In this document: positions 10,605 through 53,652 of the stretch, piece by piece
Numbering within the stretch: the stretch's first letter is position 1
Layout of the letters: every line of letters starts with the position of its first letter
Source: an uncultured Leptolyngbyaceae cyanobacterium
Lineage (GTDB): Bacteria; Cyanobacteriota; Cyanobacteriia; Leptolyngbyales; Leptolyngbyaceae
Assembly (NCBI GenBank): GCA_938023035.1
Contig: CALIDI010000037.1
Span: forward strand, 1 to 64,000
Length of the DNA stretch: 64,000 bases
Reading direction: 5' to 3'
Program-made: the position numbers and the translations under genes
Notes under the pieces: generated by a model
Seen by the model: only the letters and a program-made list of their open reading frames with translations
Told to the model about the DNA's origin: nothing
The model's database searches: none

Positions 10605-11084
10605 TCAGACCGATTGATCGGGTGCAGTAATTTTCACCGTACCCACCATTCCGGCTTCTGCATGGCCAGGAATTGAGCAATGTAACTCATAAACGCCGGA
10701 TTTGATTGGCACAAATACCCACTCTGCCACTGCGCTAGGTTTGAGTTCCACTTCGTGAATGGCTCCTTTGACCTCAACCTTGCCCGCCTCTACTTTCTGC
10801 GTCCAGATGCCATCAGTAAAATCTTTAGCCGTGAAGTAGTGCTTTAGCGAGCTGGGATTCTTTAAGATCAAACGATAGCGCTTGCCTGCAACGAATTCTA
10901 GGGTTGCTGGTTCAAAGACCAATGCATTTGCCTGATTGCCAAGGTTGACACGGGCTTCTACTAAAGGTGCTCCTGAAAATAAATCTTTGGCTCCGTTACC
11001 ATCGGCAACGGCAGGCGAGGTTCCGGTGAGCCAAACCAACATCACCAATAGCAGGGCGAAGGCGGAGTGAAAAAAAGCTTGCAT
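10605..11084 (-). CDS. Secreted cupredoxin (type 1 copper protein)
   Basis: The protein has 159 residues. It has a signal peptide (MQAFFHSAFALLLVMLVWL.., cleavage likely after AVA at about 27) and one cupredoxin domain at about 42-153. The type 1 copper ligands are visible: His82 (SLKHYF), Cys136 and His141 (LHCSIPGHAEAGM) and Met146. The spacing C-x4-H-x4-M is plastocyanin-like. The rest of the sequence differs from PetE, notably the inserted KDFTDGIWTQKVEAGKVEVKGAIHE stretch typical of other cyanobacterial cupredoxins. It is likely a periplasmic or lumenal electron carrier or copper-binding protein. It is not called plastocyanin. Paired hairpins lie upstream (11147-11240). Confidence 0.88.
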   Translation of the reverse strand: MQAFFHSAFALLLVMLVWLTGTSPAVADGNGAKDLFSGAPLVEARVNLGNQANALVFEPATLEFVAGKRYRLILKNPSSLKHYFTAKDFTDGIWTQKVEAGKVEVKGAIHEVELKPSAVAEWVFVPIKSGVYELHCSIPGHAEAGMVGTVKITAPDQSV

Positions 11085-11146
11085 GGGTTATTTTCCAAGG
11101 CTGGTGTTTTCGCGATCGCGCTTTTATCCTTTATAAGGACACCAGC

Positions 11147-11240
11147 GCACTTTCTGGTGCAAAGTGCTGTCCGAGCGAGCTGTGCGTATATCAGGCAGGC
11201 TTATTGCTCTTGCTGGCTCGCACTTTCTGATACAAAGCGC
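11147..11240 (-). promoter_or_regulatory. Two related hairpins in the cupredoxin upstream region
   Basis: GCACTTT-CTGGTG-CAAAGTGC (11147-11167) and GCACTTT-CTGATA-CAAAGCGC (11220-11240) are near-identical palindromes 73 bp apart. A separate CTGGTGT..ACACCAG pair lies at 11101-11107/11139-11145. Duplicated palindromes ahead of a metalloprotein gene could be operators or cruciform elements. The binding protein is unknown. Confidence 0.4.
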
Positions 11241-11400
11241 TATCTCAGCAGAGAATTCAGTATAGCGCGCCATTAAATCGGGGGGCAAAAAACAATTAGC
11301 AAAAGCGAAGAAACTTAGAGACTTGCCAGCCTAAGTAGATAGTTCTAATTAGCAGCAGATAAGAGTAAAAGCTGAGCACGGAGGCAAGGGGTTCTTACCA

Positions 11401-11422
11401 CCGCAATTGAAGCTGATTGCGG
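11401..11422 (-). terminator. Weak hairpin below ndhD
   Basis: CCGCAAT (11401-11407) pairs with ATTGCGG (11416-11422). It lies 17 bp past the ndhD stop on the minus strand, without a T-run. Confidence 0.35.
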
Positions 11423-11438
11423 GGTGCCCAGCTACTTA

Positions 11439-13031
11439 TCAGTTCAAGTTGGGTGCTTTCATCACAGTAGCGGACTCCAAAATCACTGGTTCTGGCTCTA
11501 GTTTCTGCTGCGCAATTAGCGATAGAGAATGGCGCAACTTTTCAGTGAGTTGCAAGGTTTTAGCATCGTAGATTTGCGTTAGCAATTTGGGGTATAACCC
11601 AATCCCAATAATTGGGATCAGCAGCGCACTGATGATGTAAATCTCACGAGGCTCTGCATCAACCAGAACCTGATGCTCTAGTAGTTCTTTATTTTCAGGG
11701 CCGTAAAAAATTTCTCGCAGGTTAGAGAGCAAATAAATGGGGGTTAAGATGACGCCAACCGCAGCCAGAAACACAACCAAAACTCGGAAGGGTAAACTGT
11801 AGGCATCACTGGTGGCAAATCCCACAAACACCATTAGCTCCGCAACAAACCCGCTCATTCCCGGTAAGGCTAGGGAAGCCATTGAGCAGACTGTCCACAT
11901 AGCAAAGATCTTCTTCATCTTTTGGCCAACGCCACCCATTTCATCCAGCATAAGGGTGTGGGTTCGGTCATAGGTGGCTCCCACCAGGAAGAAGAGGCTA
12001 GCCCCAATCAGACCATGGGAAACCATTTGCAAAACCGCGCCACTCAATCCCAAGTCGGTAAAGGAGACAATGCCAAGAATAACAAACCCCATGTGAGAAA
12101 TGGAGGAGTAGGCAATTTTGCGCTTTAAGTTGCGCTGGGCAAAGGAGGTAAGCGCTGCATAGATAATATTCACAACGCCTAAGATCACGAGAGCGGGGGC
12201 GACGGTCGCGTGGGCATCGGGTAACATCTCCACATTCATGCGGATGAGCGCATAGCCCCCCATCTTCAGCAGAATCCCCGCCAGTAGCATATGAACAGGG
12301 GCCGTGGCTTCACCGTGAGCATCGGGCAACCAAGTATGCAGTGGAATAATCGGCAACTTGATGGCATAAGCAATCAGAAACCCTGCGTAGAGCCAAAGTT
12401 GCAGCTTCAAGGGGTAAACCTTTGCCGCCAGGGTCTGCATGTCAAAGGAGACAGTATCCCCATAAAAGGCCATTGCCAGAGCTGAGAGCAGAATAAACAG
12501 CGAACCACCGGCTGTGTAGAGAATAAACTTTGTGGCGGCATATTGCCGCTTTTTACCTCCCCAAATCGCCAGCAGTAAGTACACCGGGATTAGCTCCAGC
12601 TCCCAGGCGAGGAAGAATAACAGCAAATCTTGTACAGCGAAAACCGCAATCTGGCCACCATACATGGCCAGCATTAAAAAGTAAAAAAGGCGTGGCTTTA
12701 GGGTCACGGGCCAAGCGGCCAAAATGGCCAGGGTGGTGATAAAGCCTGTTAATAAAATCAGGGGCATGGATAACCCATCTGCACCGACTGACCAGCGTAA
12801 ATCGAGCTGCGGAATCCAGGTGTAGCTTTCGACTAGCTGCAAATCAGGGTTAGAGAAGTCGTAGAAGTTACAGAAGGCATAGACAATCAAAGCGAAGTCA
12901 ATTAACCCAACGATGAGGGCATACCAACGCACCGTTTTGCCGTCTTTATCTGGCAGAAAGGGAATAGCCGCACAAGCTGCGATCGGCAAGAGAATGCTTG
13001 TCGTTAGCCAGGGGAAATCAGCAGTCAACAT
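11439..13031 (-). CDS. ndhD: NAD(P)H-quinone oxidoreductase (NDH-1) subunit 4 (NdhD)
   Basis: This 530-residue polytopic protein has about 14 transmembrane segments. The antiporter-like core of NdhD/NuoM is clear: the lysine/histidine channel region [36 protein letters not shown] and [14 protein letters not shown], plus the [40 protein letters not shown] block with its conserved glutamate. The pairing with ndhF and the length point to the D1 type, used with NdhF1 in the respiratory/cyclic-electron-flow NDH-1L complex of the thylakoid membrane. D2 cannot be excluded by eye. It lies 598 bp below ndhF on the same strand. Confidence 0.96.
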
Positions 13032-49185: not shown

Positions 49186-49821
49186 CTACTTATTGGGCTG
49201 CGGTGTCATCCGCAGGTAGGGCTTAATTTCTTTCACCCCCTTAGGAAACTTCTTCACCGCTTCTTCCGTAGGAATCGAGGGCACCACCACCACATCTTCC
49301 CCATCTTTCCAGTTCACTGGGGTGGCAACTCCGTAGTTATCAGTCAGTTGCAAAGAGTCAATCACCCGCAAAATCTCTTCAAAATTGCGGCCAGTGCTGG
49401 GGGGATAGGTGATCGACAAACGCAGTTTCTTTTGGGGGTCGATGACAAAGACGGTACGCACGGTTAGGTTAGGATTGGCATTAGGGTGAATCATGCCATA
49501 CAGTTCAGAGACCTTTTTATCTACATCGGCCAAAATCGGGTAGTTAACAGTAGTGTTTTGGGTTTCGTTGATATCCCCAATCCAGCCAGCGTGAGAATCG
49601 GCATCATCAACGCTGAGCGCAATCACTTTTGCGTTACGCTTGTCAAACTCCGCCTTTAACCGCGCCACTTCACCTAGCTCGGTGGTGCACACTGGGGTGT
49701 AGTCTGCCGGGTGAGAAAACAAAACCACCCAGCTATCACCGGCCCAATCGTAGAAGTTAATTTCGCCTTCGCTCGATTGTTGGGTAAAGTTGGGAACGGT
49801 GTCGCCTAGTTGTAAAACCAT
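49186..49821 (-). CDS. 1-Cys peroxiredoxin (Prx6 type)
   Basis: From ATG 49821 the protein has 211 residues, the family's normal length. VVLFSHPADYTPVCTTELG carries the single peroxidatic cysteine (about 46). SVDDADSHAGWIGDI, YGMIHPNANPNLTVRTVFVIDP and the extended C-terminal arm (VVVVPSIPTEEAVKKFPKGVKEIKPYLRMTPQP) are typical of Prx6/1-Cys enzymes. No resolving cysteine is present. It is cytoplasmic and reduces H2O2 and alkyl hydroperoxides. The longer frame to 49863 lacks support. Confidence 0.95.
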   Translation of the reverse strand: MVLQLGDTVPNFTQQSSEGEINFYDWAGDSWVVLFSHPADYTPVCTTELGEVARLKAEFDKRNAKVIALSVDDADSHAGWIGDINETQNTTVNYPILADVDKKVSELYGMIHPNANPNLTVRTVFVIDPQKKLRLSITYPPSTGRNFEEILRVIDSLQLTDNYGVATPVNWKDGEDVVVVPSIPTEEAVKKFPKGVKEIKPYLRMTPQPNK

Positions 49822-49932
49822 GTCTAGAACTCCTATCAGTTGCAAGGGGGTGATTTCTAACAAAGGTCTATATTGCCATAAAACCCCGGTTTTTCGGTCG
49901 GATTTTAGAACATTTTAATCCTTGCTGAATGT

Positions 49933-50302: not shown

Positions 50303-51073
50303 ATGGAATCTACAGACACAAAAGCCCTGCTTCTGGTTGATCAGCAACCGTTGTCGTTGCGCCAGTGCTTGCGTTATTTGCAGGCATCTGGCAAGCTTCA
50401 GGCTTTTATTGGCGATATCTTAAGGCAATACGTTCTGGAAACTGAGATAAACACTCGTGAGGATTTAGATATCAGTCCTGCCATGGTTGAACAAGCCGTG
50501 GTCGATTTTCGCCTGCAACAAAAACTGACTGACCAAAAGATTTTTCAGGAATGGTTAACCCGCAATGGGATCACCTACGATATCTTCCACAAGCAGATTA
50601 GCAACAGCTTCAAACTGGAAAAACTCAAGGTAGTGGTTACTGAGCCGCGGCTACAGGAGTACTTTATTGAACGTAAGTTGTTCTTTGACCGCGTTGTCTT
50701 ATCACGCATCGTGGTGGATACCAAGGAAATGGCAGAGGAGTTGCTCAGCCAAATTGAAGAAGGTGCGAGCTTTGAGCATCTAGCGCGGGAATACTCTAAA
50801 GGTAACGAGCGGATTGCCAACGGCATGATGGGGCCTGTGAGCCGTGGCACAATGCCTGATAATCTGCGGGCAAAGGTCGATTCAGCTGAGTTAGGAACGA
50901 TTGTCGGCCCCGTTGAAATTGAAAACCTTTGGGCGCTTTTTCGGGTTGAGCAGGTGCTGCCTGCTACCCTAGAGGATGCGCAATTGCGCCAAGCGATGCA
51001 AAACGAACTGTTTGAACGCTGGCTGACAGAGAAGATGCAACAGATGACAGTTAAGCTTCAGGTGACGGAATGA
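50303..51073 (+). CDS. PpiC/parvulin-type peptidyl-prolyl isomerase
   Basis: The 256-residue protein has no signal peptide, and its N-terminus (MESTDTKALLLVDQQPLSL) is soluble. An N-terminal helical region (about 10-115) resembles the SurA/PrsA chaperone arm. A parvulin core follows at about 125-220: FFDRVVLSRIVVDTKEMAEELLSQIEEGASFEHLAREYSKGNERIANGMMGPVSRGTMPDNLRAKV. The gene overlaps the ABC exporter by 4 bp (ATGA), a classic translationally coupled pair. It likely keeps the exported substrate foldable or assists the transporter in the cytoplasm. Confidence 0.88.
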   Translation: MESTDTKALLLVDQQPLSLRQCLRYLQASGKLQAFIGDILRQYVLETEINTREDLDISPAMVEQAVVDFRLQQKLTDQKIFQEWLTRNGITYDIFHKQISNSFKLEKLKVVVTEPRLQEYFIERKLFFDRVVLSRIVVDTKEMAEELLSQIEEGASFEHLAREYSKGNERIANGMMGPVSRGTMPDNLRAKVDSAELGTIVGPVEIENLWALFRVEQVLPATLEDAQLRQAMQNELFERWLTEKMQQMTVKLQVTE

Positions 51074-53652
51074 TTGCCAACGATCCGACTCTTAACTTGC
51101 CTTGGGATGCCCCACCCCTGAGCCTGCTCACCCCTGAACAGCAGGTAAAGGTAAAGCATGGGGCGCAGCTTCAGCGCTTCAGTTTGGGTGAAATGCTGTG
51201 GTCTACGGATGAGCAGCCCGGCGGCCAAATCCTGGTACTTTCGGGCAAGGTGCGCTTAGTTCCAGAATCGGGTAAGTCAATTGTGCTCAATCAGGGTGAC
51301 TGGTTGGGAGATTTATTAGAATTGCCGGGTTTCTGGAAGGCGCGGGCGGCGGATCGAGAAGTGTTGGTAGTGCGCTGGTCGAAGGATTTATGGCAGGCGC
51401 TCCAGTCATCGGATTTAGATCGATTTTGGGTGGTGCAGCGCAAACGGTACCAGCCAGAAACGGAAAGTACGCCCAAGATGGTGTACGGCTTCCCCTTTGT
51501 GCCGAGCGTGAATACGGGTGCGGCTTGCTTGACCATGGCGGCCAATCACCTGCAAAATCCTGCCCAGTTGGAATGGGTGCAAAGGCAGTTACGCACCCAA
51601 AGCCCTGCGGATGTGGTTGAAGCGGCAGAGAAGCTAGGTTTGCAGTTGCGCACAGTGGAAGCCGATTGGTTGGGGTTACGGCAGTTGGGGATGCCGGCTC
51701 TAATGCAGTGGCATGAGGTGGCTGATGCTGCTAGTAATGGTAATGGTCGTCCCTCAGGCCGGGTGCCGGTTCCCTTTCACTGGGTGTTGGTTTATGCCGT
51801 GCGTGGCGATCGCCTGATTGTGGCGGATCCGCTCAACCCTAGCCAAACCTGTGAAAGCATTCCTCGCCAGGTCATTGAGTCAGTCTGGAATGGCAAACTG
51901 CTCCAGGTTGAGCTAATTCAGAAGCAGGAGAAATTTAACCTTTCCTGGTTTTTGCCAGCGGTTCTCAAGTATCGCGGGCTATTGCTGGAGGTTTTGCTAG
52001 CCTCCTTGACCATTCAAATTTTGGGGTTAGCGACCCCCATCATTACCCAGGTGGTGATTGACAAGGTGATGGTGCAGGGTAGCCTGCCCACCCTGGATGT
52101 GATGGCGCTCGCTCTGCTGGCTGTGGCTTTCTTCGAAGCCTTTCTCGGGATTTTGCGTCTCTTCATCTTTACCCACACCGCCCGACGATTGGATCTGAGC
52201 CTTTCGGCCCAGCTCTTTCGCCACTTGATGCGACTTCCCCTCTCCTATTTTGAGGCGCGGCGAGTCGGGGATACCGTGGCGCGAGTGCAAGAACTAGAGA
52301 ATATTCGTCAATTTCTCACGGGTACTGCCTTGACTGTGGTGCTAGATGCCATCTTTGCGGTGGTTTATCTGGTCATCATGTTCTATTACAGCTCGACCTT
52401 AACCCTGGTGGCGCTGTCGGTTATTCCTTTGTTTGCGATGTTGACCCTGATTTCGACTCCGATTTTGCGGAACTGGCTCAACGAAACCTTTAACCGCAGT
52501 GCCGATAGCCAGTCCTTCCTGGTGGAAACAGTCACGGGGATTCATTCTGTCAAGGCCCATGCCGCCGAGAAAGTCTCCCGCGATCGCTGGGAGGGGTTGT
52601 TTGCTCGCTTTGTCCGCACTGGGTTTAAGGCCTCGACCACCCAAAACATTAGCAGCCACATTGGGGATTTCTTGACCAATTTCTCCTATCTGCTGATCCT
52701 CTGGTTTGGGGCCAAGCTGGTGATTGAGCAAAAGCTGACAGTGGGTCAGTTGGTTGCCTTTCAAATGTTGTCGGGGCGGATGACGGGGCCACTGCTGCGG
52801 TTGGTACAACTCTGGCAAAATCTGCAACAGGTGCTGCTTTCCGTTGATCGAATTGGGGATATTCTCAACTCGGCCCCTGAGGCCGAAGCGGGCACGGGTT
52901 TGGTATTACCTCCGCTAAAGGGAGAGGTGATCTTTGACGAAGTGTTTTTCCGCTACTATCCTGACCAAGAGCCAGTCCTGCGTGGCATTTCCTTTAAAGC
53001 AGAGCCAGGCATGTTTGTGGGAATTGTGGGTCGTAGTGGTTCGGGTAAGAGCACGTTATCTAAGCTGATTCAACGGCTTTATAACGTAGAGTCAGGGCGA
53101 ATTTTGATTGATGGCTTCGAGGTTAAGAGTGCCGATCTGGCTTCTCTGCGCCAGCAAATTGCGGTCGTTTTGCAGGAAGACTATATCTTTAATGGCTCTG
53201 TGATTGACAACATCACCCTGGGTCATCCGGATGTGAGCGCTGAGGCGGCGATCGAAGCGGCACGTAATGCTGCCGCCCATGACTTTATCAGCGACCTGCC
53301 CCATGGCTATGAAACCCCAGTCGGGGAAAGAGGGACGTCCCTTTCTGGCGGGCAACGACAACGATTGGCACTCTCTCGCTTGTTTCTTTCTGAAGCCCCC
53401 ATTCTGATTATGGATGAGGCTACCAGTGCTCTAGATGCAGAGACGGAGCAGCAGGTGCTGCAAAATTTGCAGAAAGTAGCCCGCGATCGCACCATTTTTA
53501 TGATTGCCCACCGCTTTGCCCCGCTCAAAAACGCCGATATGATTTTGGTTCTGGAGAAAGGGGTATTGGTTGAGAAGGGCACCCATGCCGAGCTGTTGCG
53601 CAGCCGAGGGTTATATTATTCGCTCTATCAGCGTCAGCAAGCGTCGGTATAA
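51070..53652 (+). CDS. C39-like ABC exporter with an N-terminal cNMP-binding-like domain
   Basis: The 860-residue protein has a cyclic-nucleotide-binding-like beta-roll (about 22-115), a C39 peptidase-like domain (about 135-280), a six-helix exporter membrane domain (about 300-590), and an ATPase (about 615-850). GRSGSGKST is the Walker A, LSGGQRQRLALSR the signature, LIMDEATSALD the Walker B, and IAHR the H-loop. In the C39 domain the catalytic cysteine position is Thr149 (VNTGAACL), though His237 and Asp253 remain, so it is a non-proteolytic C39-like domain as in HlyB. A type I secretion role is likely. No HlyD partner is adjacent. Confidence 0.93.
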   Translation: MIANDPTLNLPWDAPPLSLLTPEQQVKVKHGAQLQRFSLGEMLWSTDEQPGGQILVLSGKVRLVPESGKSIVLNQGDWLGDLLELPGFWKARAADREVLVVRWSKDLWQALQSSDLDRFWVVQRKRYQPETESTPKMVYGFPFVPSVNTGAACLTMAANHLQNPAQLEWVQRQLRTQSPADVVEAAEKLGLQLRTVEADWLGLRQLGMPALMQWHEVADAASNGNGRPSGRVPVPFHWVLVYAVRGDRLIVADPLNPSQTCESIPRQVIESVWNGKLLQVELIQKQEKFNLSWFLPAVLKYRGLLLEVLLASLTIQILGLATPIITQVVIDKVMVQGSLPTLDVMALALLAVAFFEAFLGILRLFIFTHTARRLDLSLSAQLFRHLMRLPLSYFEARRVGDTVARVQELENIRQFLTGTALTVVLDAIFAVVYLVIMFYYSSTLTLVALSVIPLFAMLTLISTPILRNWLNETFNRSADSQSFLVETVTGIHSVKAHAAEKVSRDRWEGLFARFVRTGFKASTTQNISSHIGDFLTNFSYLLILWFGAKLVIEQKLTVGQLVAFQMLSGRMTGPLLRLVQLWQNLQQVLLSVDRIGDILNSAPEAEAGTGLVLPPLKGEVIFDEVFFRYYPDQEPVLRGISFKAEPGMFVGIVGRSGSGKSTLSKLIQRLYNVESGRILIDGFEVKSADLASLRQQIAVVLQEDYIFNGSVIDNITLGHPDVSAEAAIEAARNAAAHDFISDLPHGYETPVGERGTSLSGGQRQRLALSRLFLSEAPILIMDEATSALDAETEQQVLQNLQKVARDRTIFMIAHRFAPLKNADMILVLEKGVLVEKGTHAELLRSRGLYYSLYQRQQASV

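Follow-up and report, generated by a model that had tools for sequence, protein, structure and literature searches.

Gene pair and its conservation

The window (i.e., the whole 64,000-nucleotide stretch of DNA that was analyzed) belongs to a genome assembly of 4.75 Mb in 62 contigs and contains two overlapping forward-strand genes between positions 50303 and 53652. The first (50303-51073) encodes a PpiC-type peptidyl-prolyl isomerase of 256 aa, and the second (51070-53652) encodes an ABC exporter of 860 aa. The 3' neighbors of the exporter gene are a ubiE-type methyltransferase gene and then a DUF445 gene. The features of the region are as follows, with the basis of each in parentheses.

49186..49863, minus strand: 1-Cys peroxiredoxin, divergent, upstream of the pair (domain match)
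50303..51073, plus strand: PpiC/parvulin peptidyl-prolyl isomerase with an N-terminal SurA/PrsA-like helical module and no signal peptide (domain and structure matches)
51070..51073, plus strand: ATGA overlap formed by the isomerase stop TGA (51071-51073) and the exporter start ATG (51070-51072)
51070..53652, plus strand: ABC exporter, HlyB-type (TIGR01846 above cut-off)
51070..51459, plus strand: predicted cyclic-nucleotide-binding-type fold, residues 1-130, ligand cassette not conserved (predicted model and alignment)
51484..51924, plus strand: degenerate C39-like domain, residues 139-285 (domain match, alignment, and predicted model)
51514..51516, plus strand: Thr149 codon ACG, in the column of the catalytic Cys (alignment)
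51988..52794, plus strand: ABC transmembrane region, residues 307-575 (domain match)
52978..53637, plus strand: ATPase domain, residues 637 to about 856 (domain match and alignment)

In all 25 of the loci compared, the window among them, the isomerase gene directly preceded the exporter gene in the same orientation. It also did so in every named locus whose exporter was complete; these named loci came from Leptolyngbyaceae, Nostocales, and others. The pair is conserved across filamentous cyanobacteria, and its retention in every examined orthologous locus with a complete exporter indicates that it is not a chance arrangement. The initial annotation had described the two genes as translationally coupled; the ATGA overlap is real in the window, but an identical 4-base overlap occurred in only 6 of the 24 other loci. 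The conserved feature of the pair is the gene order and not the four-base overlap. A peroxiredoxin homologue occupied the same place in 18 of the 24 other loci; this gene is a conserved neighbor that probably lies outside the system.

We also conducted a wider survey composed of the orthologous loci and 40 loci of more distant exporters. An upstream isomerase accompanied 116 of the 124 distinct exporters without the catalytic Cys of the C39 domain (Cys-less exporters) versus none of the 16 exporters that retained it (Cys-intact exporters). The Cys-intact exporters formed one side of a single branch in a quick tree (support, 98), and the association between Cys loss and the isomerase therefore represents one historical event. 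Cys, triad, and isomerase counts were all made on distinct sequences, with duplicates between collections removed. In three loci (L200, L206, and L214), a Cys-intact C39 exporter was accompanied by HlyD, downstream of which lay a weaker match to the isomerase. A long-branch subgroup (L210, L211, L212, L215, and L216) consisted of isomerase-ABC-HlyD exporters of about 1000 aa with Asp or Tyr in the Cys position.

Isomerase and exporter domains

The isomerase was assigned by a Rotamase/PpiC match (E value, 1.2e-12), and it scored under the cut-off for TIGR04500 PpiC-related peptide maturation proteins (71 versus 180 bits). Its AlphaFold model (pLDDT, 88.6) yielded the foldases PrsA and SurA as the best Foldseek matches, with a superposition that was poor over the whole length (TM, about 0.3 to 0.5) and good for the parvulin domain alone. 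The protein shares with PrsA and SurA the combination of a parvulin domain and a helical chaperone module. The known members of this foldase type act outside the cytoplasm, whereas a simple hydropathy check of the isomerase detected no hydrophobic leader, in agreement with the initial annotation, which had described the protein as having no export signal. Given the lack of a hydrophobic leader, a cytosolic location can reasonably be assumed.

The exporter exceeded the cut-off of TIGR01846 (type I secretion HlyB; 771.4 bits versus 725.55), and HlyB proteins were the closest solved sequences. Its Pfam-type domains were ABC_membrane, ABC_tran, and Peptidase_C39 (E value, 1e-6), and a cNMP_binding match was sub-threshold (21.2 versus 27.5 bits). 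The ATPase motifs (i.e., Walker A Lys660, Gln702, signature Ser759, catalytic Glu783, and switch His814) were invariant in the orthologues, indicating that the exporter gene is not a decaying copy.

In a predicted model of the first 290 residues of the exporter (pLDDT, 87.9), residues 1 to 130 superposed on cyclic-nucleotide-binding domains with a Z score of about 14 over about 125 residues. The cNMP-binding-like domain that had been suggested for this region is thus supported as a fold. Gating of the exporter by a nucleotide-like ligand, which had also been suggested, was unsupported by the sequence comparison: at the position of Arg92 in the phosphate-binding cassette, 51 of the 87 distinct orthologues have Val or Ile, and position 81, the acidic contact of the cassette, was variable. 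With the canonical Arg replaced to this extent, a conserved cyclic-nucleotide switch in the N-terminal domain is unlikely.

In the same predicted model, residues 139 to 285 superposed on the C39 domains of both PCAT1 and ComA (Z, about 17.8) and likewise on 3zua, the HlyB C39-like domain (Z, 14.1). The C39 nucleophile is missing, with Thr149 in place of the catalytic Cys, exactly as first reported. A survey of the orthologues, in which an intact Cys had been named as the refuting case, detected Cys in none of 87 distinct sequences (Thr, 75; Ser, 7; Ala, 4; Pro, 1). Among the distinct Cys-less exporters of the wider set, the catalytic His was kept in 38 of 124 and the catalytic Asp in 44 of 124, while each was kept in 16 of 16 Cys-intact exporters; the window exporter itself retains His237 and Asp253. 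The Cys-His-Asp triad of peptidase-containing exporters of the PCAT type (HetC, PteB, and ComA) is therefore incomplete in the window exporter. Because the loss of Cys is clade-wide, a private mutation or sequencing error at Thr149 was ruled out. Cleavage supplied by another C39 exporter was also ruled out, as this genome contains only one C39 match. Visual inspection of the listed downstream ORFs (at least 80 to 90 aa) showed no cargo with a double-glycine leader.

Partner proteins and candidate cargoes

No HlyD, TolC, or RTX gene was seen among the ORFs around the pair in the window. This agrees with the initial annotation as far as the vicinity is concerned, but both HlyD and TolC types are encoded elsewhere in the genome, which contains several HlyD-family genes and one TolC-type gene, the latter on another contig than the pair. 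One of the HlyD proteins (G000:C51, about 88313-89786, in the window genome) was 81% identical to one in a genome of the same genus. We examined its co-occurrence with the exporter in 23 genomes of the same class outside the family. Orthologues of this HlyD (56 to 58% identity) were present in exactly four genomes, all of them exporter bearing (G036, G037, G053, and G057), and the other 19 had neither the exporter nor the HlyD orthologue (Fisher P, 1e-4). In G053, the HlyD gene was located 102 bp from the exporter gene in convergent orientation. Furthermore, in 11 named loci HlyD was within the 20 kb of DNA that had been fetched, and paralogous exporters with 65% identity had a sister HlyD within their own cluster. 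Four genomes (G008, G025, G030, and G034), two of which are incomplete, had HlyD without an exporter orthologue among the matches listed.

The HlyD genes elsewhere in the genome, the co-occurrence, and the adjacency in G053 together rule out the absence of any fusion protein. The description of the pair as lacking a membrane fusion protein was not supported, as the co-occurring HlyD sits on another contig. HlyD and TolC-type genes are thus present in the window genome, with HlyD co-occurring, yet they are unlinked to the pair. The absence of a fusion protein and of a substrate at the window locus is a local gene-order effect. As neither HlyD nor a cargo gene lies beside the window pair, the partnership was deduced from other genomes.

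The lack of an obvious substrate gene, also reported initially, did not extend to related genomes, in which a large protein that is not a leader-peptide substrate recurs immediately 3' of the exporter. In 12 of the 24 nonwindow loci, the exporter gene was followed by a same-strand gene for a protein with a PPC-type N terminus. Most of these proteins were >2300 aa or ran off the fetched DNA, and they carried FG-GAP and cadherin-like repeats. The large protein was absent downstream in half of the 24 loci and in most Nostocales loci. Several copies of large PPC/FG-GAP proteins occur per genome, and the evidence therefore consists of the linkage and not of the presence of such proteins.

In a genome of the same genus (G001), a large PPC/FG-GAP protein begins 226 bp downstream of the exporter. 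Its counterpart in the window genome is encoded by an unlinked gene (G000:C2:55213-62163) for a protein of 2317 aa that contains PPC, FG-GAP, and Cadherin_3/4 domains, and the two proteins were 54 to 55% identical over the first 400 aa. The candidate cargoes lack signal peptides, and no hydrophobic leader was detected in the 2317-aa candidate. RTX nonapeptides, i.e., GGxGxDx(hydrophobic), numbered zero in eight candidate cargoes; a search for RTX genes, which had been proposed, thus found none among them, and the downstream candidates were rejected as RTX proteins.

Several other proteins were encoded near the exporters or their partners. A PPC/FG-GAP-type frame of 842 to 851 aa was located about 2 kb from the co-occurring HlyD in two genomes (G004:C93 and G020:C93). 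In L062, the same-strand gene 3' of the exporter (10786-12774) encoded an N-acetylmuramidase/peptidoglycan-binding protein (Pfam), and a protein of similar sequence was in the same position in L063 (5765-7588). In five loci with the 65%-identical paralogous exporter (L067, L068, L071, L072, and L073), the proteins encoded downstream of it had a common '..H.SFQP..' N-terminal region, and all three that were scanned contained a subtilase domain. The C termini of these proteins were mutually unrelated, and some resembled swappable toxin-type ends by eye. Nonsubtilase proteins of 306 and 330 aa that start like '..QQSASFQPPS..HSSS' were encoded beside the paralogous exporter in L069 and L070.

Proposed role and relation to known systems

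The subclass of exporters represented here is intact and conserved. Its engine is ordinary, and its unusual features are the linked cytosolic foldase, the cyclic-nucleotide-binding-type domain, the non-RTX candidate cargo, and the scattered genes. From the genes and their domains, the loss of the catalytic triad, the gene order, the HlyD co-occurrence, and the downstream linkage in relatives, we infer chaperone action, cargo docking, assembly with HlyD and TolC, and the identity of the cargo. We propose, with a probability of roughly 0.7, that the exporter is the inner-membrane ATPase of a HlyB-like type I system for uncleaved giant non-RTX surface proteins and that the isomerase is its dedicated cytosolic foldase. 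The PrsA/SurA-like isomerase would hold a very large, repeat-built cargo in an export-competent state in the cytosol, and the degenerate C39-like domain would dock this cargo and not cut it. The ABC core, together with an unlinked HlyD-type fusion protein and a TolC-type channel, would then thread the cargo to the outside. The main cargo here is likely the unlinked 2317-aa PPC/FG-GAP/cadherin-like protein. An unprocessed, folding-sensitive substrate, which the initial annotation had suggested, remains the best current reading of the Cys-less C39 domain and of the isomerase without an export signal.

If this proposal is correct, filamentous cyanobacteria share an overlooked route by which giant cadherin-like proteins reach the cell surface, with possible relevance to adhesion, mats, and biofilms. 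Type I secretion would gain a dedicated cytosolic prolyl isomerase, and the association reported between C39-like domains and RTX cargo would have an exception. Within the literature collection that was searched, no paper combined all the terms for a prolyl isomerase linked to type I secretion, which is not proof of novelty.

A broader reading is more tentative. Isomerase-linked Cys-less C39 exporters could represent a distinct type I class in which an uncleaved N-terminal signal or domain is recognized in place of a C-terminal RTX signal and the foldase delivers the cargo to the C39-like domain. In the paralogous clusters, the first 55 residues of the candidate cargoes were 30 to 87% identical, while the last 100 were unrelated (13 to 29%). 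Such a shared N terminus with unrelated C termini would, at the level of sequence, fit N-terminal recognition.

We considered three alternatives to the proposed HlyB-like system with a giant cargo. The same type I system might have a different main cargo (i.e., small PPC, muramidase-like, or other proteins), with the giant gene being a hitchhiker. PPC-type proteins of 583 to 800 aa in L141, L155, and L045, the two same-strand N-acetylmuramidase-like proteins of L062 and L063, and the many loci without an obvious cargo are consistent with this possibility. We consider it unlikely, given that the protein with the PPC-type N terminus was the most recurrent same-strand neighbor of the exporter (12 of 24 loci), mostly at a distance of 75 to 550 bp.

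According to the second alternative, the protein is a HetC-like exporter that transports an unprocessed peptide or protein over the inner membrane only, without HlyD or TolC, and is regulated by a nucleotide (e.g., ppGpp) that acts via the cyclic-nucleotide-binding-type domain. HetC of Nostoc PCC 7120 has the same order of cyclic-nucleotide-binding-type, C39, and ABC domains, its N-terminal region has been shown to bind ppGpp in vitro, and no fusion-protein gene is located near it (PMC10986499); the window pair likewise has no HlyD beside it. However, HetC retains and needs the catalytic Cys and His of an active peptidase, whereas in the clade of the window exporter the triad is gone and an isomerase gene is linked. 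A specific HlyD co-occurs with the exporter and adjoins it in another genome, and the residues of the ligand cassette are not conserved. These differences make a HetC-like mode of action quite improbable. Finally, an active peptidase with an unusual nucleophile (Thr149 or the neighboring Cys153) that cuts a leader is exceedingly improbable: the window protein has His237 and Asp253 and Cys153 is conserved, but most orthologues have lost His and Asp, the nucleophile position is Thr, Ser, Ala, or Pro, Cys153 also occurs beside the true Cys in Cys-intact C39 domains, and no double-glycine leader cargo was seen among the listed ORFs.

The proposed HlyB-like system can be compared with further exporters. 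PteB of Synechococcus elongatus is likewise a cyanobacterial C39-family exporter for secreted proteins (PMC4997328); unlike the exporter described here, it needs the catalytic Cys, and its cargo consists of small double-glycine proteins. Sll1180 and Sll1181 of Synechocystis are described as HlyB and HlyD analogues for the export of the S-layer protein Sll1951 (Agarwal et al. 2018), and by that description they resemble the proposed system as exporters of a cyanobacterial surface protein. In Rhizobium, the PrsDE type I system exports the Rap proteins, which belong to the matrix and are cadherin-like (PMC9298526); the likeness is again one of description. The closest relationship is with HlyB-type exporters (TIGR01846). 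In HlyB, the C39-like domain serves to tether unfolded cargo and leaves it uncut; large uncleaved proteins are the cargo of exporters that have this domain, which has been correlated with large RTX cargo (PMC8277102). RTX cargo is usual for these exporters and not strictly defining, and it was not found among our eight candidates. HlyB and the window exporter both have a C39 fold without the catalytic Cys; the window exporter differs in having an unlinked HlyD, candidate cargoes without RTX repeats, an additional N-terminal domain of the cyclic-nucleotide-binding type, and an upstream gene for a cytosolic foldase.
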